DNA of 64,000 nucleotides from a virus, in IMG/VR virus record IMGVR_UViG_3300044972_002666, positions 25,517 through 89,516 of that record. One strand, given 5' to 3'. The position numbers were made by a program, and so were the translations under genes. This document shows, piece after piece, positions 36,781 through 58,625 of the stretch; positions within the stretch are counted from its first letter, which is position 1, and each line of letters opens with the position of its first letter. The notes beneath the pieces were generated by a model. That model made no database searches, had not been told where the DNA came from, and saw nothing but the letters and a program-made list of their open reading frames with translations.

Positions 36781-36792
36781 ATACCGATTTTT

Positions 36793-38322: not shown

Positions 38323-38341
38323 AATATTTATTATTTTATTG

Positions 38342-38352
38342 AATATACGGTC
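38342..38352 (-). promoter_or_regulatory. Motif A promoter of the NAMPT-like gene
   Basis: Minus-strand GACCGTATATT, 19 nt before ATG 38322; perfect consensus. Confidence 0.6.
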
Positions 38353-38359
38353 CTCCTGA

Positions 38360-38524
38360 TTAATCTACGTCGAAATTAGGAGAATTTTCTGAATAATATT
38401 CTTGATATTCAAAATCATCCTCGATCTGTTTTATTATTACAGACTCGGTTGGATTAACCTCTTTTGAAGGGTTTTGTTGGGATTGGATATTTTCCAATTC
38501 TTTTTCTTTTGGGTTCATTTTCAT
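38360..38524 (-). CDS. Small acidic protein (about 54 residues)
   Basis: A short minus-strand frame, start ATG 38524 or 38518, ending TAA at 38360: MNPKEKELENIQSQQ, then Ser/Glu-rich to SENSPNFDVD. It fills the gap between the HAD and NAMPT-like genes, with a motif-A variant (AACGTATAATT) just upstream, overlapping the HAD stop. No family. Confidence 0.5.
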   Translation of the reverse strand: MKMNPKEKELENIQSQQNPSKEVNPTESVIIKQIEDDFEYQEYYSENSPNFDVD

Positions 38525-38532
38525 TTTCTTAA

Positions 38533-38976
38533 TTATACGTTGATTCCTAAAACTCTTCTTTTTCCTCTAATTCTATACGTTGCCATTTCTAGAATGTTTA
38601 GGGATTCATTCATTCCACCTCTGTCATCCAGGAAAATGTTGGCATAGATTTTACCTTTTTTACCGTAAGGTAAGTCGATTGGATTTTTATTGATCGAGTC
38701 GATTGTGAGGCCAATGCTTTTACAATAGTCTTCGATTTCTGGATATCTTGCTTTGTCACAAGAAGTAAAGATTACGATGTAAGCTCCGGTTTCTCTAGCA
38801 ACCTTTAGAACTTCTAGAACCCTTTCTGGATTAAAATTCTCCATCTTCCATGGGGAAATTGTGTCGTCATAATCACATCCGATGATTATCTTTCCATACT
38901 GTTCCCATTCACTTTCTAGTCTTTCTAGATAAGGGATAGAGTCCGGATTTGTTTCGAAATATTCTCTTAATTCCAT
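38533..38976 (-). CDS. HAD-like phosphatase/5'-nucleotidase-like protein
   Basis: 147 residues. IIIGCDYDDTISPW is the DxDxT motif, IVIFTSCDKARYPE motif II and ANIFLDDRGGMNESL the acidic motif. It resembles phage hydrolases annotated as HAD or nucleotidase-like. It sits in the nucleotide region, so a nucleotide monophosphate substrate is plausible. Confidence 0.75.
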   Translation of the reverse strand: MELREYFETNPDSIPYLERLESEWEQYGKIIIGCDYDDTISPWKMENFNPERVLEVLKVARETGAYIVIFTSCDKARYPEIEDYCKSIGLTIDSINKNPIDLPYGKKGKIYANIFLDDRGGMNESLNILEMATYRIRGKRRVLGINV

Positions 38977-38992
38977 AAAGGTATTTTATTTA

Positions 38993-39003
38993 AATATACG
39001 GTT
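38993..39003 (-). promoter_or_regulatory. Motif A promoter
   Basis: Minus-strand AACCGTATATT, 16 nt before ATG 38976; one mismatch to consensus. Confidence 0.55.
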
Positions 39004-39346
39004 AGATAGAAGGATCATATTCCATATACGTGATCTGGATTCCTTTTCTTCTGGCAAATTCGACCTCTTCTGCAACACCTCTCGATCTATCCCAACCTTC
39101 CATTTTATAAACTATGATTTCGTCACAAGCCTGGAGAATGGAAAGACAAAAATTCTCCCAGAATGGCCAGTCAATTGGCATTGGTTTAAATCCAACCAGC
39201 GTGTGACCATAAGTAATAGGGGAAATTGCAACCTGACCCTCTGAGCAAAGCTTAGCCGCAAGCCTCGAGACTTTTTTAAAGTTCTCCTCGGTAACATCAG
39301 GGTCGGGATTAGAATAAGGAGAAGCTATATAAATTACTCTACTCAT
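39002..39346 (-). CDS. DUF1937/DUF4406-like nucleoside deoxyribosyltransferase-fold protein
   Basis: 114 residues. VIYIASPYSNPDPDVTEENF, AISPITYGHTLV and RSRGVAEEVEFARRKGI match the small deoxyribosyltransferase-fold group (IAxPYS...; SxGVxxEhxxA), with the Glu of the terminal motif as probable catalytic residue. A distant relative of the protein at 34211-34690. Confidence 0.78.
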   Translation of the reverse strand: MSRVIYIASPYSNPDPDVTEENFKKVSRLAAKLCSEGQVAISPITYGHTLVGFKPMPIDWPFWENFCLSILQACDEIIVYKMEGWDRSRGVAEEVEFARRKGIQITYMEYDPSI

Positions 39347-39616
39347 TTAGCATCTTAATAAACCACCACCTTCATCTCTAAAAGGAAATCCTGATCCAGG
39401 AAATCCGGGATATACATTAAATCCATGTTCTTGTCCTAATTCCTCTAGAGACGGTTTTTCGTTCTCCTTAGCTGGGATTTCTGCAACATGCTCAAAAATT
39501 CCATTCAGCCTGGATTTTATTTTTTCGACCTGCTCCTTAGTTGGAGTTGGCCCGCAAGCTTCTAGAAATCCATCAAGCCAGATAACAAAATTTCTTGTTT
39601 CTTCCATGGTTAACAT
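39347..39616 (-). CDS. Small phage protein, paralogue of the upstream gene
   Basis: 89 residues. The first half (ETRNFVIWLDGFLEACG, then EQVEKIKSRLNGIFEHV) aligns with its neighbour's EFAYWLQGFFELSET and RQVETIKNHLKLVFYH, so the two are tandem duplicates of a helical domain often seen in phages. The second half is Gly/Pro-rich. Overlaps the neighbour by 7 nt. Confidence 0.7.
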   Translation of the reverse strand: MLTMEETRNFVIWLDGFLEACGPTPTKEQVEKIKSRLNGIFEHVAEIPAKENEKPSLEELGQEHGFNVYPGFPGSGFPFRDEGGGLLRC

Positions 39617-39849
39617 TTTATAGTTCTTGGGTTAGAATTTCTCGGAGTTCTCTTTTGAGGTTCTCCGTCGTGAATTTTTTGCATGGTTTCCTGTACTACA
39701 GGATCTGTAGAATAGGAAGGATCTATCTCATGATAGAAAACCAGCTTCAAATGATTTTTAATAGTTTCGACCTGTCTTTCCGACAAGGTGTTAGTTTCGC
39801 TAAGTTCGAAGAACCCTTGTAACCAATATGCAAATTCTGTACTTTTCAT
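39610..39849 (-). CDS. Small phage protein, paralogue of the downstream gene
   Basis: 79 residues: MKSTEFAYWLQGFFELSE, a helix-turn-helix-like hairpin, then a polar tail. The YWLQGFFE pattern is a recurrent phage domain of unknown function. ATG immediately follows the NADAR stop. Confidence 0.7.
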   Translation of the reverse strand: MKSTEFAYWLQGFFELSETNTLSERQVETIKNHLKLVFYHEIDPSYSTDPVVQETMQKIHDGEPQKRTPRNSNPRTIKC

Positions 39850-40323
39850 TTAATTTAATTCTTTTTTTACTAAGTTTAACGCCCATCCAAGCAAGTTCAG
39901 TCCCCTCCAGTGTTCTGGAGATTCTATATTTGGATGATCCTCTGCCATTCCAATTCCCCAAATTTGATCCAAGGGTGAAGCTTCTACCAGGATTCTATTC
40001 TCGGTGGAAAGAAGATCTGATTTTAGATCCTCATTTTGAGAAAATTTAGCTAGATTTCCTTTATAGACTATGCTCAAGCAAACCGAATCCCAAATGTTTT
40101 TATCAAACCCTTGAATTTGTCTTCCGAGTGCTTTTTGCTCTTTCGGATTCTCTGTCAGAAGTATCTGAGATGCAATATAAAAGTCGCTGAAGACGATAGC
40201 TTTTTGATGCATCATATATTGCTCACAAGAGCTATACTCAACACCGTCGATTGTCATTTTTGCTTTGTGCCACTGAGAATAAATCCCGTTCCAAAAGAAG
40301 ACATATTTTTCTGTTATTTTCAT
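39850..40323 (-). CDS. NADAR (YbiA-like) N-glycosidase family protein
   Basis: 157 residues. FFWNGIYSQWHKAKMTIDGVEYSSCEQYMMHQKA is the conserved NADAR front end (F..G..S.W), with the QxMMxxKA catalytic segment. GRQIQGFDKNIWDSVCLSIV and LVEASPLDQIWGIGMAEDHP (S-P-x-D-x-x-W-G-x-G) complete the family pattern. NADAR proteins remove ADP-ribose from modified nucleobases or cleave related N-glycosidic intermediates. In a phage, reversal of ADP-ribosylating defences is plausible. It overlaps the PurA gene by 4 nt. Confidence 0.92.
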   Translation of the reverse strand: MKITEKYVFFWNGIYSQWHKAKMTIDGVEYSSCEQYMMHQKAIVFSDFYIASQILLTENPKEQKALGRQIQGFDKNIWDSVCLSIVYKGNLAKFSQNEDLKSDLLSTENRILVEASPLDQIWGIGMAEDHPNIESPEHWRGLNLLGWALNLVKKELN

Positions 40324-41378
40324 TTTAATTGTTGTATTTTATCAAGTGAATCCCCGTAAGAGACGAACACTTTATTGAATTTAATTTCTAATTTTTCTAG
40401 CAATTTTTCTACATCTATTGGATATTGATCCATGCAGGTAATTACTAGATTTTTGGTTTGACCCTCAGAAAAATGAGAGTCACATTTTAAAGAATAGTTT
40501 AGAAGATCCAAATCTAAATCTGCTGTTCTAAAATTTCCTTGGTATTCATGAGAGACGTTTGTCTCCAATTCATTATTAATTAGGGGAAGTTCTTTTTCTC
40601 CTGGAAGAAATCCAGCTCCGTGTCTAGTTAAATAAGATCTTGTGATGTAGTAGATTTCGTTTGAATGCAGAGGAGAAATTTCCAGTGCATTTTTAGATGT
40701 TGTATTAGATCTGGTAACGTTTGGAAAAAATCCAAAATCCATATCTAAAAGAACCCCTTGAGCCCCTTCAAATATAGCATCTGAATAATTTAAAAGAACT
40801 TTTTCATTTGTCAATTGAACTATAGTAGTTACAATTGTTACGTCTTCTAAAAAGTTATCGATTTCGAGATCCTCCATTCCGTAATACTTAGCAATGTTTT
40901 CTAATTTTGCTTTGAAGACTTCTGGATAGAACATATCCTGTGCATAAAGCTTATAAAAGTTTTCGTGTCTTTTAAGAGTTGATCCAAATCCTACCCCGAC
41001 TGTTCCATGACTCACATTCTGGGAATCTTTTCGGTTGCTGTATAAATCGTAAGGTGTTGTGATTGGACATAAAGGATCAAGATAAAATCCTGGGAATTTT
41101 AAAGATTTATCCAGTAGAAATTTTAATTCATTTAGAAATGCTGTCGGAGAGAATGTGCAATATTTGCTCCAGTACGTTGGAACTTTTTGAAGTGTTCCTG
41201 ATCCAAAGCTAGAAAACACATGTCTTTTTCCTTTGAAGGATACTGTGTGACCTGCTTGGTGACCCCCGTTGAATCTAACAACGATGGGATTTTTAGATTG
41301 GGAACAGAGGAAAGAGGTGGTTAACCCCTTTCCTTCGTCTCCGTAGTTTAGTCCAATTACTATTTTGCTCGTATTCAT
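40320..41378 (-). CDS. purA: Adenylosuccinate synthetase (short PurA)
   Basis: 352 residues versus about 430 in cellular PurA. IGLNYGDEGKGLTTSFL (P-loop with catalytic Asp), VRFNGGHQAGHTV, IFEGAQGVLLDMDFG and VTRSNTTSKNALE are present. It links IMP and aspartate with GTP. The Asp in GDEGKG is retained, whereas 2-aminoadenine phages carry PurZ with this residue changed, so this is read as PurA and not PurZ. Motif A for it lies inside the upstream VWA gene (41425-41435). Confidence 0.92.
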   Translation of the reverse strand: MNTSKIVIGLNYGDEGKGLTTSFLCSQSKNPIVVRFNGGHQAGHTVSFKGKRHVFSSFGSGTLQKVPTYWSKYCTFSPTAFLNELKFLLDKSLKFPGFYLDPLCPITTPYDLYSNRKDSQNVSHGTVGVGFGSTLKRHENFYKLYAQDMFYPEVFKAKLENIAKYYGMEDLEIDNFLEDVTIVTTIVQLTNEKVLLNYSDAIFEGAQGVLLDMDFGFFPNVTRSNTTSKNALEISPLHSNEIYYITRSYLTRHGAGFLPGEKELPLINNELETNVSHEYQGNFRTADLDLDLLNYSLKCDSHFSEGQTKNLVITCMDQYPIDVEKLLEKLEIKFNKVFVSYGDSLDKIQQLK

Positions 41379-42259
41379 TATAGGATAATATCTACAGAGT
41401 CTTTTTCATCTGTAGTATTACTAGAATATACGGTCGCATTCTCAGAAGGTTTTCTTTCCCCTTGAATAGTTAAAATTGTTTCTGAGATAATTTTCGGGAT
41501 ATCTTTATAGTCTTTTGCAACTATAAGGTGATCTCCCATTAATTCTTTCCAAGCCGAATCAACTTTTCTGTAACCATGTTCTAAGAAGATATGGAAAACG
41601 TGATTTGTCTTTTGAGCTTGTTCTAGAAGAACTGTAGCATCCCAAGTAGATTGGCCTGATGCTGAATCCCCCATGATTTCCTTTACTGCAGACATTGGTA
41701 GAGAATTAAGGAAAGGCTCATCACCGATAGTGAATACGAATCCTTTTTGGTTTCTCTTCTCCCAAGCATCTGTTGCAACGTGATTTCCTGCGAAATACCA
41801 AGCTAATGGATAGCTTTCTCCGCCGTTTCCACCACCTCCGCCTTCGAGCCAGGTTCTGGTAAGCCACATGTCCAATTCTTCGTCACCAGATTCAAACTGT
41901 CCAACTTGGAGAGGTGATTTGTCACATTCGTGGTCACCGATAGCTCCAAACATAAGGGAAGCATCCTCTACACCTCTTTGAATTAGATTCCCCATTAAAG
42001 TTGGTAAACCGTCTTTAATCATTTCGTGGGGAATATGTCCCATGCTTCCGGTAACGTCCAAATAAAGCTGAATCGGGGTAGCATTCGGGTGAGCCTCGGA
42101 ATCTCTACATTCTCTGTAGACGATTCCTTTAGGTCTCATTTGCTCGTGAGCTTTACCCTCTTTACTTTGGGTAAAGATCTCGTTTCTTGATTTGCTATGA
42201 TAGCCAAAAGATTCGGATCTGATGGATCTATTATAGGTAGAATAACTTGAATTTCCCAT
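41378..42259 (-). CDS. VWA-domain phage protein
   Basis: 293 residues. PIQLYLDVTGSMGHIPHEMI carries MIDAS DxTGS, ASLMFGAIGDHECDKSPLQ follows, and an EGGGGGNGGESYPLAWY loop supplies the third MIDAS element. It is a stand-alone VWA protein of the type common in large phages. Partner unknown; distinct from the VWA at 24612-25565. It is preceded by a coiled-coil gene. Confidence 0.85.
   Translation of the reverse strand: MGNSSYSTYNRSIRSESFGYHSKSRNEIFTQSKEGKAHEQMRPKGIVYRECRDSEAHPNATPIQLYLDVTGSMGHIPHEMIKDGLPTLMGNLIQRGVEDASLMFGAIGDHECDKSPLQVGQFESGDEELDMWLTRTWLEGGGGGNGGESYPLAWYFAGNHVATDAWEKRNQKGFVFTIGDEPFLNSLPMSAVKEIMGDSASGQSTWDATVLLEQAQKTNHVFHIFLEHGYRKVDSAWKELMGDHLIVAKDYKDIPKIISETILTIQGERKPSENATVYSSNTTDEKDSVDIIL
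41425..41435 (-). promoter_or_regulatory. Motif A inside the VWA coding sequence
   Basis: Minus-strand GACCGTATATT, perfect consensus, about 46 nt upstream of the PurA ATG, embedded in the 3' end of the VWA gene (encoding NATVYSS). Confidence 0.5.
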
Positions 42260-42264
42260 ACGGA

Positions 42265-42624
42265 TTATTCAAATAAGTGGTTGTAACGAGTTCTTGCAAT
42301 TTCTAGAGTGATCTCTAAATTTCTAATTTTGAGACCGATCTCTACATCCTTTTGGATGAAAGCTTCTGCGTCAAAATCTGAAGCCATTACCAAAGAATCT
42401 GCTGTTGTTGGACTAAGGTCTAACATAGATTCTCTTTCTCTTTTTAGCTGTTTAATAGCTAATTCTGTGTCCTCAACTTTTCTTTTGTAGAGCATTTGAG
42501 CAGCTTCTGCGATTGCGATTGCTCTGTCTTCGCGGATCTTTTTGTTGTTACGCACTAAAGAGCCTACGAATGCACCTTTCATTTCTTCCAAGGTTCCGGT
42601 CATTTCATCAATTTGATTGTCCAT
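42265..42624 (-). CDS. Coiled-coil protein
   Basis: 119 residues, almost entirely helical with heptad-like Leu/Ile spacing (KRKVEDTELAIKQLKRERES; EIGLKIRNLEITLEIARTRY). No enzymatic motif. Probable partner of the VWA protein 5 nt downstream. Confidence 0.65.
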   Translation of the reverse strand: MDNQIDEMTGTLEEMKGAFVGSLVRNNKKIREDRAIAIAEAAQMLYKRKVEDTELAIKQLKRERESMLDLSPTTADSLVMASDFDAEAFIQKDVEIGLKIRNLEITLEIARTRYNHLFE

Positions 42625-42644
42625 GATATTTTATTTTATTTAAT

Positions 42645-43166
42645 TTATTTGTTGTATATTACTATAGTTACTTTACAGTCTTTTAATTCGGTCTGTATGA
42701 TTTTTTTTATTCTGTTCCAATCTCCTCCAGCTAATCCTGCTCCTATTTTTGGCATTCCTATGTGTTTGCCTCTAAAGGTAGAATTGATCTTCCTCATGCA
42801 AAGGGTTAAAGCCTCGTAGTCTAAAGGTTTGGAAACCCCATCTGAGTGATTCTTTCCGTAGTAGTTTTGGGTGTAAGAATTAACAACGGCCAATTCAGGT
42901 TCGTTTCGGTTATTTTTAGCATCCAGAAGACTCCAGATTGCATTTTCTCCTAGAACTACAGTTTCATAATCTATGCAGCCTAATTTTTCGATAGTTGGAC
43001 CCCAAGTTTCCATTTCGAATTTATCGCATCCAAATGCTTTTGCCATTTGTGGTGCAATCCCTGCTCCCATTTGGGATCTGCAATTACATCCATGGGTGAT
43101 AACTTCAAATTTACCTTGCTTTGCTAATGAGATTAAATCTCCTTCTATTTCTGAGTATGATTCCAT
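42645..43166 (-). CDS. Macrodomain (ADP-ribose-binding/-hydrolysing) protein
   Basis: 173 residues. VITHGCNCRSQMGAGIAPQMAKAFG is the macrodomain ADP-ribose site (N-C-x5-G-x-G/A), LAVVNSYTQNYYG a conserved strand and IGMPKIGAGLAGGDWNRI the phosphate loop. It closely follows the Poa1/ALC1-like branch. It could remove ADP-ribose from targets or process ADP-ribose-1''-phosphate. ATG overlaps the upstream PTH2-fold gene stop. Confidence 0.93.
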   Translation of the reverse strand: MESYSEIEGDLISLAKQGKFEVITHGCNCRSQMGAGIAPQMAKAFGCDKFEMETWGPTIEKLGCIDYETVVLGENAIWSLLDAKNNRNEPELAVVNSYTQNYYGKNHSDGVSKPLDYEALTLCMRKINSTFRGKHIGMPKIGAGLAGGDWNRIKKIIQTELKDCKVTIVIYNK

Positions 43167-43640: not shown

Positions 43641-44543
43641 TTAGAATACGTTTAGTTGTTTAACAAATTGTTTATCAAATTCAGCACCTTTGTAATTTTC
43701 AGACTCGTTTATTTCGGAGATAGAATTGGTGGTATAAATTCTATCAAAATATTTACTAAGTTCTTCAAATCCTGCGCTGAAGATGCCGTGAGTTACGATA
43801 AGGTAATTTTTTCCGTGCTTATCTGGATGAACCACTGAACTTAAAGATCTCATTTCTTCTATAGCCTTGGCGATTTCTATGAATGTTCTCCCACCGTCAC
43901 AGATATCATCTATAATGATAAAATCTTTATCTGCATCATAAACGTTTATAGGTACCTTGGTGTGAATAATTTTTCCGGTAGATAAATCTCTAACTTTTTC
44001 AGCAACTATTATTTCTCCTTTATATCCGATAGATTTAGCTGTTGAGAATATTTTCTTTAGTGCTCCAGCATCAGGAGAGACCAATTTGAAATCTCCTCCT
44101 TCTGAAGATAGATCCTTGATTGCCCATTTTGCAAGATAAGAATTGTCTAGCTTTTTCAAATTATCAATGCAATTTTCTAGAGCTATCGAGTGAGCATCCA
44201 TGACGGTAACAGAAGTAAATTTTTGTAAATTGATGATAGGTGCAATTACACTCTTGATGTAGTTTAAGCCACCTTCTTCAAATTTGATGTCAGATCTTCC
44301 GCCTAGACAGTATGGAATATAAAGGTGAATTCTTTCCATTCCAGCTTCTCTCAATGCAGCTGCTGCGCAGACTATGAGTTCTAAATCCCTGAAAGAATTT
44401 AATCTGGACTTGATTGTGCAAGATATTTCTAGATCTGAGATTGTGGACAGAGCTAAAGTGATTGATTGCTGGCCGTCTGGAAATGCAGATGGTTTAAATT
44501 TGATCTGTGACTTATCTGAGTCTGCTAAATTTAATTGTAACAT
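43641..44543 (-). CDS. prs: Ribose-phosphate pyrophosphokinase-like protein (Prs or NARP1 Adps)
   Basis: Start at ATG 44543 is preferred because motif A (44559-44569) lies upstream of it. The family's FPDGQQSI motif, IYIPYCLGGRSD-type flexible loop, VMDAHS and the PRPP loop DFIIIDDICDGGRTF are all visible. It makes PRPP from ribose-5-phosphate, or, in NARP1, pyrophosphorylates ADP-ribose. It is a phage-length Prs of about 300 residues. Pairs functionally with the NAMPT-like gene at 36793-38322. Confidence 0.9.
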   Translation of the reverse strand: MLQLNLADSDKSQIKFKPSAFPDGQQSITLALSTISDLEISCTIKSRLNSFRDLELIVCAAAALREAGMERIHLYIPYCLGGRSDIKFEEGGLNYIKSVIAPIINLQKFTSVTVMDAHSIALENCIDNLKKLDNSYLAKWAIKDLSSEGGDFKLVSPDAGALKKIFSTAKSIGYKGEIIVAEKVRDLSTGKIIHTKVPINVYDADKDFIIIDDICDGGRTFIEIAKAIEEMRSLSSVVHPDKHGKNYLIVTHGIFSAGFEELSKYFDRIYTTNSISEINESENYKGAEFDKQFVKQLNVF

Positions 44544-44558
44544 ATTGTTATTTTTATA

Positions 44559-44569
44559 AATATACGGTC
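44559..44569 (-). promoter_or_regulatory. Motif A promoter of the Prs-like gene
   Basis: Minus-strand GACCGTATATT, perfect consensus, 15 nt before ATG 44543. Confidence 0.6.
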
Positions 44570-44920
44570 CTACTTTCCTTTTAATATCCAATAATCTGGA
44601 CCGGACATATTAGGTCCATCCAGTCCATCGTCGAATTTAACCTCTATCTTCCATCCGGCTGATTTGTATCTTTTTTCTAATTCGGATCTCATCAAGGATC
44701 TTCTATATGAATTTGAGTCCATCAAAGAACCTCTTTGATGAGAGTAGGTAAAAGACGGATAAGTCAAATCAATTAGAACCTCTCCGTAATTGCTCTTCGG
44801 AAATTGGTTTAGAATTTCAGAGTCAATATAATCTTCTGTCTCCTGAATAATGGTTAATTCCTCTTCGGTTAGGGGTTCGTTTTGTAATTTCTTTTTAAAC
44901 TCTTTGTATTTTATTGCCAT
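44570..44920 (-). CDS. Phage protein of unknown function
   Basis: 116 residues with a central SFTYSHQRGSLMDSNSYRR segment and a C-terminal GWKIEVKFDDGLDGPNMSGPDYW. No family recognised. Motif A is only 6 nt from the ATG. Confidence 0.6.
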   Translation of the reverse strand: MAIKYKEFKKKLQNEPLTEEELTIIQETEDYIDSEILNQFPKSNYGEVLIDLTYPSFTYSHQRGSLMDSNSYRRSLMRSELEKRYKSAGWKIEVKFDDGLDGPNMSGPDYWILKGK

Positions 44921-44926
44921 TTTATA

Positions 44927-44937
44927 AATATACGGTC
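44927..44937 (-). promoter_or_regulatory. Motif A promoter immediately before a start codon
   Basis: Minus-strand GACCGTATATT then TATAAA and ATG 44920: only 6 nt between motif and start, so the transcript would be leaderless or nearly so. Confidence 0.6.
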
Positions 44938-44986: not shown

Positions 44987-47900
44987 CTATCGAATCAAGT
45001 GAACCACACCATCCGCTGAAATATCATCCCCGCTGAAGAGTCTTGCATTGATTTTATATACATAGACTCCACTTTGGCATATTTTGCCCTTTTTACGGCC
45101 GTCCCAACCCTCATCGGGGTCTTTGGTTTCGAATACGATTTCACCCCATCTGTTATAGATCTGGAAGAGATAGAAATCCTTTTGCACGTTTATCGCGCTT
45201 GGTTTAAACACATCGTTGCGTTCATCATTGGTAGGTGTGAAGGCATCCGGTACATGCAATATGCCACGTGGATTCACGTAGATGGGCTTGGGCAACAATA
45301 GGGTATCATAACAGACCTGACTGCTTACTGAAATCAATTCCACATCATAATGCCCCGTATCGTTTACTTGGAAATAGGGATTCACCAAAAGGCTATTCCC
45401 AACTCGATTTCTAGTGCTGCTGTTGTACACATTCCACTGATATCCTACAGCTCCAGTAGTCAGGTTTCGAGTTGTGAATTTGGCATCAGGAAGGTACAAT
45501 ATAGAGGGCGTGAGATTGAAATACGTGAATGGTGCATTCAATACTTTTATGAACTGCTTCTTCTCCGTTTTACCCTCACCCCCTGGACCTTTTGCGATCA
45601 AAATCACGTCGTAATATCCGCTGTACTTATAGGTATGGACTGGGTCTTTGTCCTCGCTTCTTTCACCGTCACCAAAGAACCATATATAGCGGTCAGAGTT
45701 CACAGAAAGGTTGGTAAACTGCACGGTAAGAGGTGGGCAACCCGAATCCCCACCCACCGAGAAATCTGGGGTTGGAAATGCCGGATCGATGCGTACAAAA
45801 TTGCAAAATATATTCTTACAACCCCCATTATCTACCGTCAAACAGATTTTATAGTCTCCAGAGTCGCTAAAATCGTGGGTTGCATTTTGAATCGTACTCG
45901 TTGCAGGTATACCCGCTGGATCCGAGAAATCCCAGAAATAGGTCAGTGGTATCACACTGCGGCTCTTGTCAGTAAAGAAAATACGGTTGTCATTTGGCAT
46001 GCGGCCTTTACCAGGACTAAAGTCAAAATCCGCTTTAGGACTCACATCCACACGAACAGTGCCGTTTGAAACCTGACTGTCAATACACCCATTTGCGTCA
46101 AAGGCAAACAACTTATATGCGTATAAGCCCGGTTTTTGGTATTCATAAATTGGGTTCTTCTGAGAACTTCCTCCATTATCTCCAAAGTCCCAAATATATG
46201 TGCGTGCACCCCTTGTGTAGTTTGTAAACTGAATTACCGTCGGAGCACATAGCGCATAACTGGTGTCTTTCATTCCGATAGAAAGTCGCTGTGGGAGCGT
46301 AACTGTGCGTTTAAAGCTGTCTGTGCAACCGCGATTGCTTGTGGTGTATAGTGTAACGATGAAGCTTGTATCGGTGTAAGGTGAGGTTGGGAATAAATGC
46401 GTTAGGTTGGGAAAAGTTGATGTGCTACCATCACCAAAATTGTACTTCACAATTGGCGCATTTTCGCCAAAGCTCTGGAATTTAAAATATCCAGCATCAC
46501 ATGGATTTACCCGGTCCGTTCTGAAGAATGAATACGAGGGCTTGTAAACTGGTATCCAAATACTAGTAGAGTCTACACAATCCAAAGAGTAGGTATAAAG
46601 AACAACCTGATACGCCGTATCATTCGCACCGGTATTTATAAAGGTATGGGTAGGGTTCACATCGGTTGATGTATATCCATCTCCAAATACCCACAGGTAA
46701 TTCAACACGTTTACCGACTGGTTGTTGAACTTCACTGTGTGTGACGCACAACCCGCAGGATTGTCAACACTGAATTTTGGAATAGGGTAAGGCAATACGG
46801 TCATACTGCCGTTTGCGGTGTCCTTACATCCGTAAGGGCTTGTAGCAACAAGTTTGATGAAATAGGTAGTATCACTAAATGGACTTGAGCTTTTCTTGAA
46901 GAAATGTTTGGGGTTTGTAGTTCCTGTTACAGTGCCATCGCCCAAATCCCAAGTGTAGTTGTAGGAAGCCAAACTTTGGTTCAAAAACTGCGTCAGGTCA
47001 GGGAAACAGAAGGTATCTGTTGAAACTAGATAGTTGGCAATAGGTAATCCAAAAACCGTCACTTCGTCTTTTAGCGTATCACTCAAGCAGCCAAATTTGC
47101 TCATCGCGCTAAGCTTCACCACTACTACTGAGTCAAAAATATCGCGGCCATAGAATACCTTACTAGGACTCTTTGCGGTATCAGTTCCATATACGCCAAA
47201 CTCCCAAGTAAATGCATCGCCGTTGATGCTCTTGTTCGAGAAGCTCACAGGCAATGGACCGCAGCCATTGGTGCGGCTCATATCAAATTTAATCACCGGA
47301 TTCGGATGTAACAGTACAGTGGAATTTGCAGTATCCTTGCATCCGTGCTCACTAGTGGCAATCAAACGTACCTTATAAGTAGTATCTTTGTTTATCGCAT
47401 CATTATAGATACCCACAGGTTCTGTAGCGAATGAGGTAATTCTATTTCCTAAATCCCAAGCAAAACTCATTATTGATATATTGCCGGTATCGTAGGGTAC
47501 ACTTTGGTTGACATAGGTAACCCCGAGTGGTTTGCAACCTTCAGTTTTACTTCTGGTAAATAAGGCTTTAGGTTTTGGATAAATACGCACTGTGGTTGAA
47601 CTGGTATCTCGGCAACCATGTTCAGAAATAGATATCAGACTAACAGTATACACAGTATCTTTTGTTTTACTGGCTAAGAATCGAGCAGCAGTATCTTTAC
47701 CAAACGCTTTCCTGCCGTTGCCAAAGTCCCATATAAACTTCATTATGTTTATAGAACCCGTGTCATATGGAGTAGAATTGTTCGTAGTAGTAATATCCAA
47801 AGGTGCACAACCATCCTTTTCACTAATACTAAATTTACTCAATGGTTTTGGATAAACTCGAACCGTTTTGGTAATGGAATCTCTGCAGCCAAAGGCGTTT

Positions 47901-50080
47901 GTTCCAATTAATTTAACGGGATAAATAGAGTCTCTTGTTTTAAACGGCAAGAACCTAGCTGCAGTATCTTTGCTGTAAGCCAATATACCATTACTAAAGT
48001 TCCATAAGAACTTCATTTGGTTGATGTTACCCCCTCCATTGTGCGCACTGGTATTGGTAAATGTAACATCCAAAGGACCACAACCATTGGTTGTGGTGTA
48101 GGTATAGTTCATCGTAGGCCTTGGATCCATTGCAATGTTTAGGTAATTGGTGTCTCGGCAACCGCTTGGATCCACCATAACTACCCCAAATCTGTAGGTG
48201 CGCAGACTGTCGTATTTTCTGGAAACCGTGCGGTCAACTGAACCACCCAATCCGAAATAACTGCTGCCATTGGTTCCATCACCCCAGATAACTGAAGCTG
48301 TATTTACGGGTGAGGTTACAAAGCGAATATCTAAAGTGCTGCCCACACACCGGCTTGAAGATAACAAAGTAATTGTAGCAGAGGGCTTACCACGGACGGT
48401 AAACGTCTTTTTAATGGTATCCTTACCGCATGAGTCTGTAGCAATGAGTGTAATGGTATATGTCCCTAACGTAGAGTAAGTTTTATCTGGAGGATTCACC
48501 TGGGTAGAAGTTGTTCCGTCCCCAAAATCCCAGAAATATGTAGGGGTTCCTGCCAATCCTTTGACAGATGTATTGGTCCATTTCTGTGTTAATGGAGCAC
48601 AGCCAGTAAGCGGTGTATTGAAGTTTGCCTTTACTTTTTGTTTGACAGTAATAAGGACAGTATCTTTTAATGATCCACAATTGTTGGCTACTGTCAGCAC
48701 TGCTCTATATGTACCACCTGTTTGATAGGTATGGGTTGGGTTTTGCGCACTGCTTGTTGGTGTTGCATATCCAAAATCCCAATTTCTAGAAGTTGCATTT
48801 ATGCTGTTGTCTCTGAAGTTTACCACCAAAGGTGAGCATCCTGCAGCCGACGCTGGGCCTGCAGAAATGGTAGGCATGCTATCGATACGCAAGGTATACC
48901 TTGCAGTATCTTTACCGCAGCCATTTGAATCAATCAGCAAGACCTGGTACACACCGCGCTTGCTGTAGGTTTTAGACTGCGAAGCAGAAGAAGTACTCCA
49001 ACCAGAATTGGTTCCGTCGCCCCAAACCCAGAGGTATTTCTTATTGTTTGGCGTGCTACAAAAACGATTTTGAGAGGTATTGTTAAACGTAAAAGGTACA
49101 GCAAGATCGCAGTTGGTCGGATTGGTCGGCGCAATAATGGCAGTATCCTTAGAGGAAGCCATGATTGGGTTCCAGGTGGCAAAACTCGAACCACAATTAT
49201 TGGTTTGAGTAAGTTTCACGATGCCATTACACAAAAAGCGCTTATAGGTATAAAATAAAGTGTCTTTGTGGGTATTGAATCCCCTTACTATGGTTTCGCC
49301 ATTGCCAAAATCCCAGGTAAAAGTGGTGCTAGGTGAGCTTAAGGAAGAGTTATTGATAAAACGCATGCGAATGGGCACACAACCTGCATTGGTTCCTGTT
49401 GGTGGACCCACAATTCCAGCCACAGGATTTCTTTCATTCGACACCACACCTCGAAGGGTATCAGTGCAACTTCCCTTTGTTCCGATGATTAATAAAGTAA
49501 ATTGTCCTAGTGAATTATACTTATGGTAGAGGGATTGGCTGCTAAGCAGTAAAGTGCCAGTAGAATTACCGGTGCCATCCCCCCAAACTATGGTGTAATT
49601 TCGCAATGAATCCTGAGGTTTGATATTTATACCAAAGGTGTCAGGAACCCCCAATGAACTTATACAATTTTCCCAAATGGGAGAATAGGTATTTACTCTA
49701 TTGCCATCCAAAATTCTCGGAACAGATGCCGAAATGGTAATGGTAGTGCTTGTGCTGTCTTTACAGCCCACCTTACCCGTATCTATCGCCACCAACTTGA
49801 AGGTATAGCTACCTGCAGTGTTGATGGTGTATTTTTGGGTGGATTTGCCAACTTGTGTGCTCAGCAGTGTGGTACCCACATACCACTTGTAGGTGGCTAC
49901 ATTTCGACTGTTTCCAGTGGAAGTATTGGTAAGTGTAATTACCTGAGGTATACCACAGGTTTTGTTGGATGCATTACTGAAACTCGGTGTGAGATTCCCG
50001 CATGCTGCATGAAGATTTCCTTGTGTTGCAAACAAGGTTAAAGCGAAAGCCAAAGCTTTGCTCAAATACTTTTGAGCCAT
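44987..50080 (-). CDS. Giant PKD-repeat protein with T9SS type B sorting domain
   Basis: 1697 residues. A signal peptide (SKALAFALTLFATQGNLHAA) is followed by about 17 PKD-like domains marked by [FW]DFG[DN]G cores (WDFGDGTTST, WVFGDGYTST, WDFGDNGGSS and others). A C-terminal gliding-motility/CHU_C-type domain includes HVPDAFTPTNDERNDVFKPS and IYNRWGEIVFETKDPDEGWDG, the type B signal of type IX secretion. It would be exported by the host T9SS to the cell surface, as an adhesin or matrix protein. Base composition is visibly less AT-rich than the flanks, indicating transfer from a Bacteroidota chromosome. No motif A or B precedes it. Confidence 0.95.
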   Translation of the reverse strand: MAQKYLSKALAFALTLFATQGNLHAACGNLTPSFSNASNKTCGIPQVITLTNTSTGNSRNVATYKWYVGTTLLSTQVGKSTQKYTINTAGSYTFKLVAIDTGKVGCKDSTSTTITISASVPRILDGNRVNTYSPIWENCISSLGVPDTFGINIKPQDSLRNYTIVWGDGTGNSTGTLLLSSQSLYHKYNSLGQFTLLIIGTKGSCTDTLRGVVSNERNPVAGIVGPPTGTNAGCVPIRMRFINNSSLSSPSTTFTWDFGNGETIVRGFNTHKDTLFYTYKRFLCNGIVKLTQTNNCGSSFATWNPIMASSKDTAIIAPTNPTNCDLAVPFTFNNTSQNRFCSTPNNKKYLWVWGDGTNSGWSTSSASQSKTYSKRGVYQVLLIDSNGCGKDTARYTLRIDSMPTISAGPASAAGCSPLVVNFRDNSINATSRNWDFGYATPTSSAQNPTHTYQTGGTYRAVLTVANNCGSLKDTVLITVKQKVKANFNTPLTGCAPLTQKWTNTSVKGLAGTPTYFWDFGDGTTSTQVNPPDKTYSTLGTYTITLIATDSCGKDTIKKTFTVRGKPSATITLLSSSRCVGSTLDIRFVTSPVNTASVIWGDGTNGSSYFGLGGSVDRTVSRKYDSLRTYRFGVVMVDPSGCRDTNYLNIAMDPRPTMNYTYTTTNGCGPLDVTFTNTSAHNGGGNINQMKFLWNFSNGILAYSKDTAARFLPFKTRDSIYPVKLIGTNAFGCRDSITKTVRVYPKPLSKFSISEKDGCAPLDITTTNNSTPYDTGSINIMKFIWDFGNGRKAFGKDTAARFLASKTKDTVYTVSLISISEHGCRDTSSTTVRIYPKPKALFTRSKTEGCKPLGVTYVNQSVPYDTGNISIMSFAWDLGNRITSFATEPVGIYNDAINKDTTYKVRLIATSEHGCKDTANSTVLLHPNPVIKFDMSRTNGCGPLPVSFSNKSINGDAFTWEFGVYGTDTAKSPSKVFYGRDIFDSVVVVKLSAMSKFGCLSDTLKDEVTVFGLPIANYLVSTDTFCFPDLTQFLNQSLASYNYTWDLGDGTVTGTTNPKHFFKKSSSPFSDTTYFIKLVATSPYGCKDTANGSMTVLPYPIPKFSVDNPAGCASHTVKFNNQSVNVLNYLWVFGDGYTSTDVNPTHTFINTGANDTAYQVVLYTYSLDCVDSTSIWIPVYKPSYSFFRTDRVNPCDAGYFKFQSFGENAPIVKYNFGDGSTSTFPNLTHLFPTSPYTDTSFIVTLYTTSNRGCTDSFKRTVTLPQRLSIGMKDTSYALCAPTVIQFTNYTRGARTYIWDFGDNGGSSQKNPIYEYQKPGLYAYKLFAFDANGCIDSQVSNGTVRVDVSPKADFDFSPGKGRMPNDNRIFFTDKSRSVIPLTYFWDFSDPAGIPATSTIQNATHDFSDSGDYKICLTVDNGGCKNIFCNFVRIDPAFPTPDFSVGGDSGCPPLTVQFTNLSVNSDRYIWFFGDGERSEDKDPVHTYKYSGYYDVILIAKGPGGEGKTEKKQFIKVLNAPFTYFNLTPSILYLPDAKFTTRNLTTGAVGYQWNVYNSSTRNRVGNSLLVNPYFQVNDTGHYDVELISVSSQVCYDTLLLPKPIYVNPRGILHVPDAFTPTNDERNDVFKPSAINVQKDFYLFQIYNRWGEIVFETKDPDEGWDGRKKGKICQSGVYVYKINARLFSGDDISADGVVHLIR

Positions 50081-50099
50081 AATTTTTTCTATTTTCCCT

Positions 50100-50425
50100 T
50101 TATTTAGAAGAAATTTTATTTTTAGTTTTTTCGGTGTGTTCTTTACGATAATTGAGCCCCGAAAAATTTCCTCCTACTATTAAATTCATACAAAATGGAT
50201 CATTTATTAGATCTTCGTTTACTAATAATTCTTTTATTATAATAAAGACTCTCTATCACTCAAGTATTCTAGAATTTCTTTAATGTGATTGTATTTTCCA
50301 TATTTCTTAACAGATCTGGTTAATTTTACTCCAGATCCTAAATATCCATCATCCAAAATAGATGTAGAAAGAATCCCAATATAAAATTTTTTAGTAATTG
50401 TGCAGGTTGTTTTTTAAATATAATG
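50100..50425 (-). pseudogene. Broken GIY-YIG homing endonuclease
   Basis: In two frames the minus strand encodes KTTCTITKKFYIGILSTSILDD, shown in part, then DGYLGSGVKLTRSVKKYG, then after a stop and frameshift (50237) LLVNEDLINDPFCMNLIVGG. This is the GIY-YIG endonuclease layout of phage Seg-type genes. An in-frame TAA (50414) replaces the Tyr expected before KTTC, so the gene is dead. It lies directly upstream of the foreign PKD gene and may have mobilised that locus. Confidence 0.8.
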
Positions 50426-50500: not shown

Positions 50501-51091
50501 TCAATCCCACCAGCCCTCAATATTTCTTTCCATTAATTCGAAAAGAATTTTTCTTGCTCTTTTGTGATTATAATGGGAGACGTTCATCGCTAGTCTTTGT
50601 TTATAGTCATCCTCTGTCAATTTGAAAATTTGATGCTTAGGATCAGAGATAACTCTTTTTACTGCCAATTTGTGTTTTGCAAGATACTCGTCATAGTTCT
50701 CAGAAATTTCCTCTATTTCTAATTGTTTGGAATCTGGAAAATCTTCAGAGTCGATCCAATTGTATCTTGACTCGTGGTAGTCCATGTATTCCATTGAATA
50801 AAATTCTTCCTGAACCTTTTCCGTCAATCTAGCACAAAGAAGCATTATCTCAGAATCTCTCTTTGCTCTAGTGTGAATGTTTCTAGTTCCGATGTACTCT
50901 GCTTGGTTCTTCAACTTGGTCTTCAGGATTTCAAAGATGTAGTGATCGTCCCAATCTCTGTCTTTCCAAATGACAGGAAACCATCTCCATAGGTTTTTAA
51001 TTCCCCTTGCAAATTCTAGATGCAGATAGGGTAAATCGTGTTTAACCCATCTTTGTAATTTCCAGTGCCACTTATCTTTTATTGTTGCCAT
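50501..51091 (-). CDS. Phage protein of unknown function
   Basis: 196 residues, Trp/Tyr-rich at the N-terminus (KWHWKLQRWVKHDLPYLHL) and helical after that, ending NIEGWWD. No family beyond resemblance to proteins widespread in large phages. It follows the membrane protein by 17 nt. Confidence 0.65.
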   Translation of the reverse strand: MATIKDKWHWKLQRWVKHDLPYLHLEFARGIKNLWRWFPVIWKDRDWDDHYIFEILKTKLKNQAEYIGTRNIHTRAKRDSEIMLLCARLTEKVQEEFYSMEYMDYHESRYNWIDSEDFPDSKQLEIEEISENYDEYLAKHKLAVKRVISDPKHQIFKLTEDDYKQRLAMNVSHYNHKRARKILFELMERNIEGWWD

Positions 51092-51108: not shown

Positions 51109-52317
51109 TTACCATCTGTAAGTTCTCTTTCTGCTAAAAAAGTCTCCTGACATATCTCCATCGTTACCTATATCGTTGATTGCCGCCCATCTGGATAATA
51201 AGAAGGTAATAATTGCGGTAAGAATTGCGGTAACCCAGATAGACCAAGCTGGAGGATCTACTGTCAGATAAGAGAATTCTCTAAAGTCTTTTCTTTTGTA
51301 TTTGGATCTAACCACACCCTCCACTCGGTTAGAAATTGCTACCGGATCAAATTTACCTACTTCCATAATCTCCTCTCGGATTTCCGGTATCACTTGTCGA
51401 TTAGGAGTCCAGGAGAAGGGTTTTACCCAGTTTAGGTTCTGAGTCTTCGGATCTATTCCTATGCAGATAACCAATTCGTTATCATTACCTCCGTCCCAGT
51501 AAGCCTCTTGCATGGATGCTGTTAGCTGATCTTTAGCCTCAAAGAAGAGGAAATAAATTCTGGCGTGTTTTTCTGGACCTAGCTTTCCATTCAAATAATG
51601 AGCTAAAATTTTGAAAGTGTCAATTTTACTTTTTGGAATATAGGGCATAGAATCTAGACCTAATACATTCTCTTGGGTGTAACCTTTAATTTCTGGATAT
51701 TCGAATAGTTTATATCTTTTTACATCTTCCTCAGATACTTCTAAGAAATCAAAAGCAGAATGTGCAGCTTGAACCCTATTGTCGTAGGTGTTTGATTCCG
51801 TGGTAGATCTGGAGGTCAAAGGATTTAAATTCCATTTGATTACGTATGCATCTCCATCCTTACCGCATCCAAAGAAGCTGTGGTTTATACTACGGTTCAA
51901 TTCTAAAAATTGAGGGGTAGAATTCCAGAGCTTTCTTAATTTTTCGTAGTGTTCCTTGGTAATAGAGAATTCTTGTCCCAAAGAATTTATCATCGTCCAG
52001 TGTTCCGGATTGTGATCGCAATAAGAACAATCATAGGAAGTTGTAATAGTTGTCTTCCCTACTTTATGAGTTCTATAACAGGTTTTTCTAACATAAGTTT
52101 CCCAGTACTCGTAGTATCTAGCTTCAACTATGAGAGCACCTTTATACTCGGTGTCGCTGGTTTGAATCTTTTCAACTGTGAATTTGAAGATTAGGATAAA
52201 GAAGAAGCAGGAAACTAGAGGGACTAGAACTTCCCACCAGACTAGGGTGTGTTTGTACCATTTAAGAAGAACGATTGCTCCAATGAGAGGAATTAGTAGA
52301 CAAAGCCAGATTAACAT
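51109..52317 (-). CDS. Phage integral membrane protein
   Basis: 402 residues with two N-terminal membrane segments (LIWLCLLIPLIGAIVLL; VLVPLVSCFFFILIFKF) and one near the C-terminus (IWVTAILTAIITFLL). The central domain has paired cysteines (CSYCDHNPEH, FFGCGKDG), possibly metal-binding. Conserved in large phages; function unknown. Motif A precedes it. Confidence 0.75.
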   Translation of the reverse strand: MLIWLCLLIPLIGAIVLLKWYKHTLVWWEVLVPLVSCFFFILIFKFTVEKIQTSDTEYKGALIVEARYYEYWETYVRKTCYRTHKVGKTTITTSYDCSYCDHNPEHWTMINSLGQEFSITKEHYEKLRKLWNSTPQFLELNRSINHSFFGCGKDGDAYVIKWNLNPLTSRSTTESNTYDNRVQAAHSAFDFLEVSEEDVKRYKLFEYPEIKGYTQENVLGLDSMPYIPKSKIDTFKILAHYLNGKLGPEKHARIYFLFFEAKDQLTASMQEAYWDGGNDNELVICIGIDPKTQNLNWVKPFSWTPNRQVIPEIREEIMEVGKFDPVAISNRVEGVVRSKYKRKDFREFSYLTVDPPAWSIWVTAILTAIITFLLSRWAAINDIGNDGDMSGDFFSRKRTYRW

Positions 52318-52339: not shown

Positions 52340-52350
52340 AATATACGGTC
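52340..52350 (-). promoter_or_regulatory. Motif A promoter
   Basis: Minus-strand GACCGTATATT, 22 nt before ATG 52317; perfect consensus. Confidence 0.6.
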
Positions 52351-55535: not shown

Positions 55536-56108
55536 TCATATTTCTTCTGCTCTTAAGTTCCAACCCACATTTTCGTTAACAAATTCCTCCATCTCTGGGC
55601 TAACAACACCTCCTGTCATGGACTTTATCTTATTTAGAATTGCCTCTTCAGTCGGACCCACAAGATCAACAGTCATGACCCATCTAATTTTTCCGTCATA
55701 GATTGGATTTCCTGTAATGTCCTTCCTCTCCATTGGCTGCTGATTTGCCTTTCCATTAGCAGCTTTGATGATGTTGTCTTTGGAAAGAATTTTTCCCACC
55801 TCTGGAATTTTATTCAGAACGTTATTCCATTTTTCCATTTCATCTGAAAGTTTCTGAGTGAAGTCTCCAGATTTAAGTTTTTCAAAGGCCTCTAAATATG
55901 CCGTCTTCTCTGAATCTGCAGCAACTTCCACAATGAAAACCTCATGGACTTGTTCTTCCCAGTTTCTATAGTAGTTGACTTCTGGGGTAACTGTGGATAT
56001 TGATCCAACAACCCTCCATTTCTTTCCCAGACCAACCTCGGCAAGGTCCCCCATGAGGGACTTGATTTCTTCGTCTGAGTAGTCTTCAAATAGTTTTATG
56101 TGCTTCAT
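55536..56108 (-). CDS. CTS-tagged protein with DLAEVGL motif (paralogue 1)
   Basis: 190 residues starting MKHIKLFEDYSDEE, then SLMGDLAEVGL. Shares the tag and a downstream LEAFEKLKSGDFTQKLS segment with the adjacent gene, so the pair is a tandem duplication that has diverged. Function unknown. ATG overlaps the upstream stop by 4 nt. Confidence 0.78.
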   Translation of the reverse strand: MKHIKLFEDYSDEEIKSLMGDLAEVGLGKKWRVVGSISTVTPEVNYYRNWEEQVHEVFIVEVAADSEKTAYLEAFEKLKSGDFTQKLSDEMEKWNNVLNKIPEVGKILSKDNIIKAANGKANQQPMERKDITGNPIYDGKIRWVMTVDLVGPTEEAILNKIKSMTGGVVSPEMEEFVNENVGWNLRAEEI

Positions 56109-56683
56109 TTATTTACTTCGGTTTGCAAAACTTTTATTGCTGTGGATCCGGCAATCTCTTGCTTGGCTGATTTGGGGGTGGATTTCCAAAGCGTGTTGAA
56201 AAATTCTTTCGCATAATCTTCAGATTTTCCTTCGAGATATTTCTCGACTATACCTTCCCATTCGTTAAATAGGATCTGTCCCGACTTTTCGTGAATTCGA
56301 GTTTTGAATTCCACCACGTCCCGAGATTCTTGAGCTTCCTTCTGAATTCTCTCCGAACTAAAAAACTTCAGAATGTTGGAAATTCTGTTCTTGTAAGCAT
56401 CAGTATCTAATTTCGATAAATCTTGAGTGAAGTCTCCCTTTTTAATTTTTTCGAAAGCCAGTTGTTCTGCCTTTGGACCTTTCTCTGGAGTGTAAATCTC
56501 CACGATGGCAAATTTCCCCCAAGGCTCTGCCCACCAAGATGGATGGGTCACCTCTTGAGGAATTGGAATTTTTTCCCCGAAGCTAACAATTACTTTATTC
56601 ATAAGACCAACCCCATCTAGATCGGACATTAGTCCTGCTAAATCTTCGTCTGAGTAGTCTTCAAATAGTTTTATGTGCTTCAT
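56105..56683 (-). CDS. CTS-tagged protein with DLDGVGL motif (paralogue 2)
   Basis: 192 residues starting MKHIKLFEDYSDED, then LAGLMSDLDGVGL; contains LAFEKIKKGDFTQDLS, matching paralogue 1. The first ~28 residues are nearly identical between the two and look like a docking or targeting cassette. A motif-B variant (GCATATAAGGAC) abuts the ATG. Confidence 0.78.
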   Translation of the reverse strand: MKHIKLFEDYSDEDLAGLMSDLDGVGLMNKVIVSFGEKIPIPQEVTHPSWWAEPWGKFAIVEIYTPEKGPKAEQLAFEKIKKGDFTQDLSKLDTDAYKNRISNILKFFSSERIQKEAQESRDVVEFKTRIHEKSGQILFNEWEGIVEKYLEGKSEDYAKEFFNTLWKSTPKSAKQEIAGSTAIKVLQTEVNK

Positions 56684-56684
56684 G

Positions 56685-56696
56685 TCCTTATATGCT
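56685..56696 (-). promoter_or_regulatory. Motif B variant
   Basis: Minus-strand AGCATATAAGGA directly before ATG 56683, overlapping the TAG of the upstream gene. Confidence 0.35.
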
Positions 56697-57579
56697 ACAG
56701 ACCGATGTCCCCTAGAGATTTGTGTATATCTGAAATTTCCCCAGTTTCTTCGTCAAATCCGGCCGGTGGAACATAACCTTCTTGCTTCATCAGATTGTAG
56801 AAGTTCAGCACCTCATTTTCTGGGTAGAGTCTAGCTGTGCCAAATACGGTCTCTGCTGTTCCTTTCGGAAGTTGACACTGAGAAATTGCATACTGAATCT
56901 CCGCAGGATCTTCTTTCATCTTCTTGACAAATCCAGCCTTCAGATCATCAAAGATGCCATAAGGAAGGTTCTTCAGAAAATCAACTGAGGACTCGTAGTG
57001 TCCTCCATAAGGGTTGCAATCCTTTTTCACTCCAACTATTCCCAGATTTCCGGTCTTGTAAAAAGACTCCAAATCCGAAGAGAAGAGTTCCATAATGTGT
57101 TTTAATCCCCTCCAAGTAGGTCCTGATATTTTTCCTTCAAACTGGGCAAAATAGAGCAGCTTAAAGAGCTCATTCCAAGACTCTTTATCGTTGAGTAAAA
57201 TTGTGAACGTCTGAGATGAAGTCATTAAATCGTTGTTGAATACAATCTTGGCCGGCTCTTCAGAGGGGGAGTCTCTGTCACCTTCTCTGAAAACCTCGTA
57301 GAAAGCCTGAGGTTTGGGTTTTGGCCCAGGGAAGAACCAAGAGTAGCCATTCCCTTTCTTTCTGACCCTCTCCAGTTTGAAATCTGGAAATGCCCCCTTC
57401 AAGGCTTGATACCAAGGCAGATCTGCAAAGTCTTCCTCCGAAGGGTTGTACAACTTCCCGTTGTTTGGAACTCGAGTAAATTTGTTCAAGAGGTAGTCCA
57501 TGTTCATCTTGCGATATTCATCCCCTTCATTCAGGGCATGCTGAGATTCAAATCGACGATAAGTTTGTAGGTGCTTCAT
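56695..57579 (-). CDS. CTS-tagged protein ending SLGDIGL
   Basis: 294 residues starting MKHLQTYRRFESQHALNE and ending ISDIHKSLGDIGL, combining tag and terminal motif. The body has FPDFKLERVRKKGNGYSWFFPGP and Pro-rich loops; no domain recognised. It terminates with TAG. Motif B lies 3 nt before the ATG. Confidence 0.75.
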   Translation of the reverse strand: MKHLQTYRRFESQHALNEGDEYRKMNMDYLLNKFTRVPNNGKLYNPSEEDFADLPWYQALKGAFPDFKLERVRKKGNGYSWFFPGPKPKPQAFYEVFREGDRDSPSEEPAKIVFNNDLMTSSQTFTILLNDKESWNELFKLLYFAQFEGKISGPTWRGLKHIMELFSSDLESFYKTGNLGIVGVKKDCNPYGGHYESSVDFLKNLPYGIFDDLKAGFVKKMKEDPAEIQYAISQCQLPKGTAETVFGTARLYPENEVLNFYNLMKQEGYVPPAGFDEETGEISDIHKSLGDIGL

Positions 57580-57581
57580 GT

Positions 57582-57592
57582 CTTATATATCC
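57582..57592 (-). promoter_or_regulatory. Motif B immediately before ATG
   Basis: Minus-strand GGATATATAAG then AC and ATG 57579. The motif-start distance is too short for a normal leader. Confidence 0.55.
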
Positions 57593-58420
57593 TTAAAGAC
57601 CAACGTCGTCCAGGTCTGACAGCATCTCTGCATCCCCTTGGATTCCTTCTGGAAATTTTAGCCCTGCATATTTTGGATCCGCCTTCAGGGTCTTCCAAAC
57701 CCCCTTTAATTCAACAGCCATCTTCTCAGGCTCTCTGTCAATCGTCTGCTGTATTTTCTCAGGAGTCAGGAGGTCCAAAATCATCTTCTGAGCTTTGGGG
57801 TTGACCTTCTTGATGGTCTCCAGCAGGCCAGGAACCCCCCAGTTGGAAAGTTCAAACCAGTCGCAGTGAAAAGTCCCACCGATTGTTTCTGGAGCCCCTG
57901 CTAAAGAGATAAGAGAAGTTGAATTTGAATAGCAGTAGAAATCCCCTCCCACCGTTCTTGGACTTCCCTCCAAGGTCTTGAGGTCATTGCCAACGCAGGA
58001 GAAATCCCCTCCCACTTCTACCGGGCCACCTTTTAAGTTCTTCAGCCTATTGGTGTTGCAGTAGAAGCCTCCCCTGACAAACTGAGGTGCTCCCTCGAGA
58101 CTGACAAGGTCATTTCGATCGCAGGAGAAATCTCTCACCAACTGAGGTGCACCCTTCAAGCTGACAAGTTCGTTTCGATCGCAGTCAAAGGCTCCACTCA
58201 CATGGCCAAAGGAGATTCCCTTAAAGTCCTTCAATCCCCTTTGTGGGCACTCAAAGTTTCCATTGACGTCAACCAAGCCGGTTTTTGGGTTGACGGACCA
58301 AGTCCCAGGCATCCCCTTCGAATTCTCAAGAGGTTCGACGAAGAGAGACAAGAACGTCTCCTGGTCTTCAGTCAGTACCGTCTTGGATTCAAAGATGCTA
58401 TATGTCTGCAAGTGCTTCAT
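57593..58420 (-). CDS. CTS-tagged leucine-rich-type repeat protein ending DLDDVGL
   Basis: I start at ATG 58420, where the tag MKHLQTYSIFESKTVLTE begins and motif B lies just upstream; the longer frame would start inside that promoter. Residues ~70-190 are repeats such as LVSLEGAPQFVRGGFYCNTN, similar to the solenoid at 26441-27553. It ends MLSDLDDVGL. Less AT-rich than the left half of the window. Confidence 0.82.
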   Translation of the reverse strand: MKHLQTYSIFESKTVLTEDQETFLSLFVEPLENSKGMPGTWSVNPKTGLVDVNGNFECPQRGLKDFKGISFGHVSGAFDCDRNELVSLKGAPQLVRDFSCDRNDLVSLEGAPQFVRGGFYCNTNRLKNLKGGPVEVGGDFSCVGNDLKTLEGSPRTVGGDFYCYSNSTSLISLAGAPETIGGTFHCDWFELSNWGVPGLLETIKKVNPKAQKMILDLLTPEKIQQTIDREPEKMAVELKGVWKTLKADPKYAGLKFPEGIQGDAEMLSDLDDVGL

Positions 58421-58423
58421 TCG

Positions 58424-58435
58424 CTTATATATCCC
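58424..58435 (-). promoter_or_regulatory. Motif B promoter
   Basis: Minus-strand GGGATATATAAG then CGA and ATG 58420. Confidence 0.6.
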
Positions 58436-58598: not shown

Positions 58599-58625
58599 GA
58601 AGGTGCCCCTAGTAGAGACACCTTC
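58599..58625 (-). terminator. Probable terminator after the ferritin-like gene
   Basis: 7-bp stem GAAGGTG/CACCTTC with a 13-nt loop, then TTTGTGTG on the minus strand; a weak T-run. Confidence 0.5.

Follow-up and report, generated by a model that had tools for sequence, protein, structure and literature searches.

The 64,000-nucleotide stretch of DNA analysed here (the window; G000:25517-89516, from a linear record of 89,516 bases) carries on its minus strand a giant gene, at 44987-50080, whose 1697-codon frame runs uninterrupted in the ORF translation, with 0 internal stops. The predicted protein of 1697 aa begins with MAQKYLSKALAFALTLFATQGNLHA (codons 50006-50080, minus strand), with cleavage before AC, a signal-peptide I shape that we judged by eye from the translation and that reads as an N-terminal Sec signal peptide; AlphaFold places a helix at residues 6-19, within a low-confidence stretch. 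Most of the remaining length consists of PKD-like units. Pfam searches matched PKD_4 in 10 stretches (E 2.6e-93) and PKD (E 9.8e-45), and an HMM built on the protein's own repeats delineated 18 units (15 strong, 3 weak) between residues 38 and 1594. The extreme C-terminus (residues about 1609-1697, codons 44987-45256, minus strand) is occupied by a T9SS type B C-terminal sorting domain (CTD), recognised as CHU_C by Pfam (residues 1609-1679, E 2.8e-15) and as TIGR04131 by NCBIfam (1.9e-11, exceeding the curated cut-off), and aligned with the CTDs of other phage and host proteins. The initial annotation, which had read this gene as encoding a signal peptide, about 17 PKD repeats and a type B sorting domain, is borne out in all three elements. 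Domain searches revealed no enzymatic domain, none of the cargo proteins tested belongs to a PHROGs family, and the top solved-structure sequence match, GhpA (PDB 9flp, E 2.2e-34), extends over PKD units only. The predicted structure of residues 1-420 is all-beta, at a pLDDT of 58. Judged from its sequence, the cargo protein is a PKD rod followed by a CTD.

The surroundings of the gene are those of a phage genome. On the 5' side lie a 196-aa gene (50501-51091, minus strand) with 147 relatives in viral contigs at up to 66% identity, many of them from jumbo phages, and, upstream in the same direction, a 402-aa gene of phrog_2087 (51109-52317, minus strand) with phage relatives. The 3' side holds a 116-aa gene (44570-44920, minus strand), for which no relatives were found and which is unusable as a synteny probe, and a PRPP-synthetase-like gene of phrog_619 (43641-44591, minus strand) with relatives in jumbo phages. 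Including more distant neighbours, three genes 5' of the cargo gene (at 50501, 51109 and 53267) and three genes 3' of it (at 43641, 36793 and 34795) have phage relatives, for the most part in contigs of jumbo phages that measure 100-476 kb. Three such contigs (L100, L132, L142) keep relatives of the 50501 and 43641 genes in the same order with ordinary small genes alone between them, and the gene content of this region differs between related phages. Several nearby genes look like a phage NAD+ salvage and nucleotide module, namely a NAMPT gene (36793-38322), the divergent PRPP-synthetase-like gene, a weak macro-domain match (42645-43166) and an adenylosuccinate-synthetase-like gene of phrog_1211 (40320-41378).

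Directly 5' of the cargo gene, at about 50103-50425 on the minus strand, lies what is left of a Seg-like GIY-YIG homing endonuclease, with its reading frame broken. Six-frame reading found no long ORF in this region; the remnant occupies at least two frames, with a switch near 50240, and its pieces were searched separately. In tblastn, the remnant has matches among the Seg-like homing endonucleases of T4-like phages; the query combined readings across frames, and the identification rests on these matches to annotated Seg-like genes, as the short pieces gave no recognised domain in Pfam. Neither an intact GIY-YIG ORF nor an intact sister copy of the endonuclease was found for this site, in agreement with the dead endonuclease proposed initially. 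Its part in making the site mobile, suggested at the same time, is putative. The absence of a phage promoter motif at the gene, claimed at the same time, was likewise upheld. The motif GACCGTATATT occurs at 16 sites in the window, exclusively on the minus strand, versus 0.77 expected, and probably represents a phage promoter class. No site falls between 44938 and 52339, which leaves the cargo gene without a motif of its own; the closest one upstream is at 52340-52350 (minus strand), and another at 44927-44937 (minus strand) precedes the next gene and marks the 3' side of the insertion. The sites as a whole span 29600-63872, in the right half of the window only, and mostly lie just upstream of genes.

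Where did the cargo gene come from? Full-length orthologues are present in two Bacteroidota MAG contigs, JAEUUL010000028.1 (MAG-354) and JAGXTF010000118.1, at 60.5% and 48.4% identity, and both occupy one shared locus, der-rlmN-[gene]-NAD-epimerase-ugd-aminotransferase; a third orthologue, in the genome G058, is 48% identical to the phage copy. The split uniting the phage copy with MAG-354 received 92% ultrafast bootstrap in the tree, with branch lengths of 0.354 for the phage and 0.392 for the bacterial orthologue, and since the phage branch is no longer than the bacterial one, the phage copy bears no sign of decay. Because the two MAG orthologues are themselves 48.3% identical and the phage copy nests among bacterial orthologues found at a conserved chromosomal locus, the direction of transfer was from bacterium to phage. 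That the gene was taken from a bacterial chromosome is thus demonstrable by sequence comparison and strongly supported. The closest-homologue search names the MAG-354 orthologue at the der-rlmN locus as the nearest sampled relative, at 40% divergence. None of the chromosomal neighbours (der, rlmN, epimerase, ugd) lies beside the phage copy, and the flanking DNA has no match to the MAG loci; the aminotransferase has a 24% match at 2588-3685 of the window, which is a distant phage gene.

The initial annotation had spoken of a recent capture from Bacteroidota, marked by a distinct composition. The host origin stands, given two syntenic orthologues and the tree; the recency is putative, with the nearest relative at 60.5% identity and a composition that is undiagnostic. 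The cargo gene does differ in GC content (0.40-0.45 versus about 0.35 nearby), but its GC3 of 0.418 lies within the range of the phage genes (0.22-0.56) and between those of the two chromosomal orthologues (0.522 and 0.355), and its codon-usage distance is mid-range among phage genes. The elevated GC sits mainly in second codon positions, as expected for a Ser/Thr/Pro/Gly-rich protein. With GC3 and codon distance unremarkable, composition was dropped as proof of recent transfer. At the right end of the record (window 56000-64000), GC reaches 0.45-0.49 in places, as high as in the captured gene, and a ferritin-like gene is found there at 58648-59259.

A check of sister phages detected no full-length copy of the cargo gene in about 55 related phage records, which rules out a gene universal in the clade and sets it apart from the phage core genes. 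No relatives of this particular gene were found in other viral contigs, and the exact 5' junction pattern occurs in no other viral contig within a scan outside which its own and near-identical records may fall. A query with the 640-aa gene at 34795 did lead to a second record, L267 (IMGVR_UViG_3300042559_002699, 89,451 bp; G103), in which 18,156 bp are identical to 24798-42953 of the window, and the two records are therefore pieces of one larger phage genome. L267 reaches about 21 kb past the left end of G000 and ends 2.0 kb before the PKD gene. It encodes a second giant T9SS type B protein of 1557 aa with a signal peptide and CHU_C (L312:13584-18257, GC 0.316), the gene for which directly precedes neck, T4-like terminase, sheath and tube-like genes. 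The best bacterial homologue of this protein, 70% identical over its full length, belongs to a relative of MAG-354 (G056). The shared affinity of both giant proteins to the same bacterial group may serve as a hint, not proof, as to the host.

T9SS cargo extends well beyond this phage. At least 13 of 38 related jumbo-phage records encode it (type A in 12, type B in 4, at the Pfam cut-off), a rough figure, as the records were reached via unrelated marker genes, include some near-duplicates and may all be fragments. Further type B genes occur in L209 (1160 and 1350 aa), L210 (842 aa), G109 (four) and G114, and in two published megaphages, LR756502 (642 kb; one cargo protein of 1670 aa) and LR745206 (635 kb; 832 aa, 732 aa and one short). 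Several jumbo phages carry type A cargo of about 635-660 aa (L257 in G006, L258-L261, L264); in the protein of L257, matches to cohesin and, weakly, to dockerin precede the sorting domain. At the other end of the size range are phage proteins in which a signal peptide and a type B CTD make up nearly the whole length (L199:1405-1755, L314:1936-2271, L326:1338-1718), which we consider candidates for decoys of the T9SS or SprF, and small CTD proteins recur in L197, L198, L200 and L316. Three genomes, G018 (L197/L188), G027 (L198) and G114 (L316), have in common an operon encoding a type B protein of roughly 190 aa together with signal-peptide proteins whose C-termini read I[SGQ]HN; a stretch related to this operon lies near 26971-27963 of LR745206. 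Type A and type B cargo recur, but with different proteins, so that a common function is putative. The distribution suggests that these phages commonly remodel the host surface via T9SS cargo. All of them are uncultured records; among the INPHARED tblastn matches, no cultured phage carried T9SS cargo. PorP/SprF was absent from ten phage records and present in 4 and 6 copies in two donor-clade genomes, so that the phages would depend on host barrels.

We propose the following model, to which we assign a probability slightly better than even (about 55%). The phage, a T4-like jumbo phage whose hosts belong to an uncultured lineage of Bacteroidota, would have gained a full coding sequence from a bacterium in or near its host clade. 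The insertion would have separated the present phage genes at 50501 and 44570, beside a homing-endonuclease gene that has presumably decayed since. During infection, the gene may be expressed when transcription from the phage promoter at 52340 reads through. The protein would enter the periplasm via Sec and be exported through the host T9SS, probably the only machine able to export it, and a host PorP/SprF barrel, on which type B CTDs are known to dock (PMC11205867), would anchor it at the surface through its own CTD. The displayed rod of 18 Ig-like PKD domains could then alter adhesion or cover phage receptors and thereby limit superinfection, which would be the benefit to the phage. Against this reading, no phage promoter directly precedes the cargo gene, and its expression in infection is putative. 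Our literature search for work tying the T9SS to phage resistance returned a passing mention in one review only. The link between the T9SS and phage resistance comes mainly from the Flavobacterium johnsoniae literature.

It is conceivable, if rather unlikely, that the gene is instead a neutral passenger, a host gene brought in by illegitimate recombination near the homing-endonuclease site, without effective expression and unselected. The missing promoter would fit such a passenger, as would its uniqueness to one phage among the roughly 55 related records and the variable gene content of the region; the lack of viral relatives is equally expected of a dead-end passenger. Yet the 1697-codon frame is still open, with a branch length like that of the bacterial orthologue, and the same phage harbours, in its virion module, the second giant T9SS gene with its phage-like GC of 0.316. 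T9SS cargo is, moreover, recurrent across related phages, which makes a bare accident less likely for this gene.

A broader reading, which we offer as speculation with limited confidence, is that exploitation of the host T9SS is common to the jumbo and mega phages of Bacteroidota as a group. Interchangeable cargo, ranging from 100-residue proteins of signal peptide and CTD to captured adhesins of 1700 residues, might either coat the infected cell or saturate the export gate and the SprF barrels, so that phage receptors vanish. A narrower proposal, in which phage-supplied type B CTD proteins block SprF barrels or the export gate of the host and stop the display of host surface proteins that serve as phage receptors, with the cargo part of the supplied proteins of minor importance, appears improbable. 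The three phages with a near-bare signal peptide and type B CTD and the recurrent small CTD proteins speak for saturation, but a PKD rod of 183 kDa would be a costly plug, and bacterial genomes, too, contain short CTD frames (116 and 146 aa, both open).

Two further explanations carry very little weight in our view. PKD repeats also occur in phage tail-like genes (for example L212, L213 and L219) and the second giant gene adjoins neck genes, as would suit an adhesin that is a component of the particle; those tail-like proteins, however, lack a signal peptide and CTD, whereas the cargo protein has both, lies among accessory genes and is orthologous end to end with a chromosomal gene. An assembly chimera of a host fragment with phage contigs is similarly hard to credit: no independent contig spanning the junctions was found and the identical second record stops short of the gene, but an internal insert needs two false joins, both placed immediately beyond the limits of the ORF. 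No chromosomal neighbour was carried along, DNA in common with the MAG loci is absent from the flanks, and the gene stands at 40% divergence from every genome sampled; an independent record of the same phage holds the second T9SS gene, and further T9SS cargo genes occur in records of 635-642 kb.

With cargo in about a third of the related jumbo records and in two published megaphages, host-surface remodelling through the T9SS becomes a testable trait of Bacteroidota phages. T9SS sorting domains could also mark the host phylum of megaphages without a known host. Mar_Mega_1, a relative of the megaphages, has no predicted host, and a paper that discusses LR745206 and LR756502 mentions neither 'secretion' nor 'Bacteroidetes' (PMC9723777). 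Group-wide exploitation of the T9SS, if true, would represent an undescribed class of superinfection exclusion; our search found no literature naming the T9SS with jumbo phages and Bacteroidota together.

How does the cargo gene relate to known systems? Its closest counterpart is the chromosomal PKD/type B CTD gene at der-rlmN-X-epimerase-ugd, with the same plan of signal peptide, repeats and CTD from end to end; unlike this orthologue, the phage copy resides in a T4-like jumbo phage and has no chromosomal neighbour. The PKD array also resembles that of the grappling-hook protein GhpA of Aureispira (PDB 9flp), a predatory hook of 5898 aa; the likeness is limited to the array, and we claim no hook function for the cargo protein. 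Ixotrophy with grappling hooks does involve the T9SS (PMC11205867). Neither T9SS cargo encoded by phages nor the proposed link to superinfection is new in itself. Cryophage was reported in 2020 to encode type A T9SS cargo, then called a unique occurrence, and a change of the host surface with superinfection exclusion was proposed for it (PMC7468147). Both cases have in common phage proteins with T9SS sorting domains that vary between relatives and the same proposed role, but the cargo of Cryophage is of type A, with enzymatic or PA14 domains, whereas the protein described here is of type B, has nothing but PKD units as its cargo part, and has orthologues whose chromosomal locus is identified. 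The BACON proteins of crAss-like phages are a further example of Bacteroidota phage proteins with a T9SS sorting domain; they differ in their repeats and belong to other phages (PMC6949934). The novelty, on the comparisons made here, lies in a giant type B cargo gene whose source locus on a chromosome has been identified, and in the prevalence of predicted cargo of this kind among Bacteroidota jumbo and mega phages.
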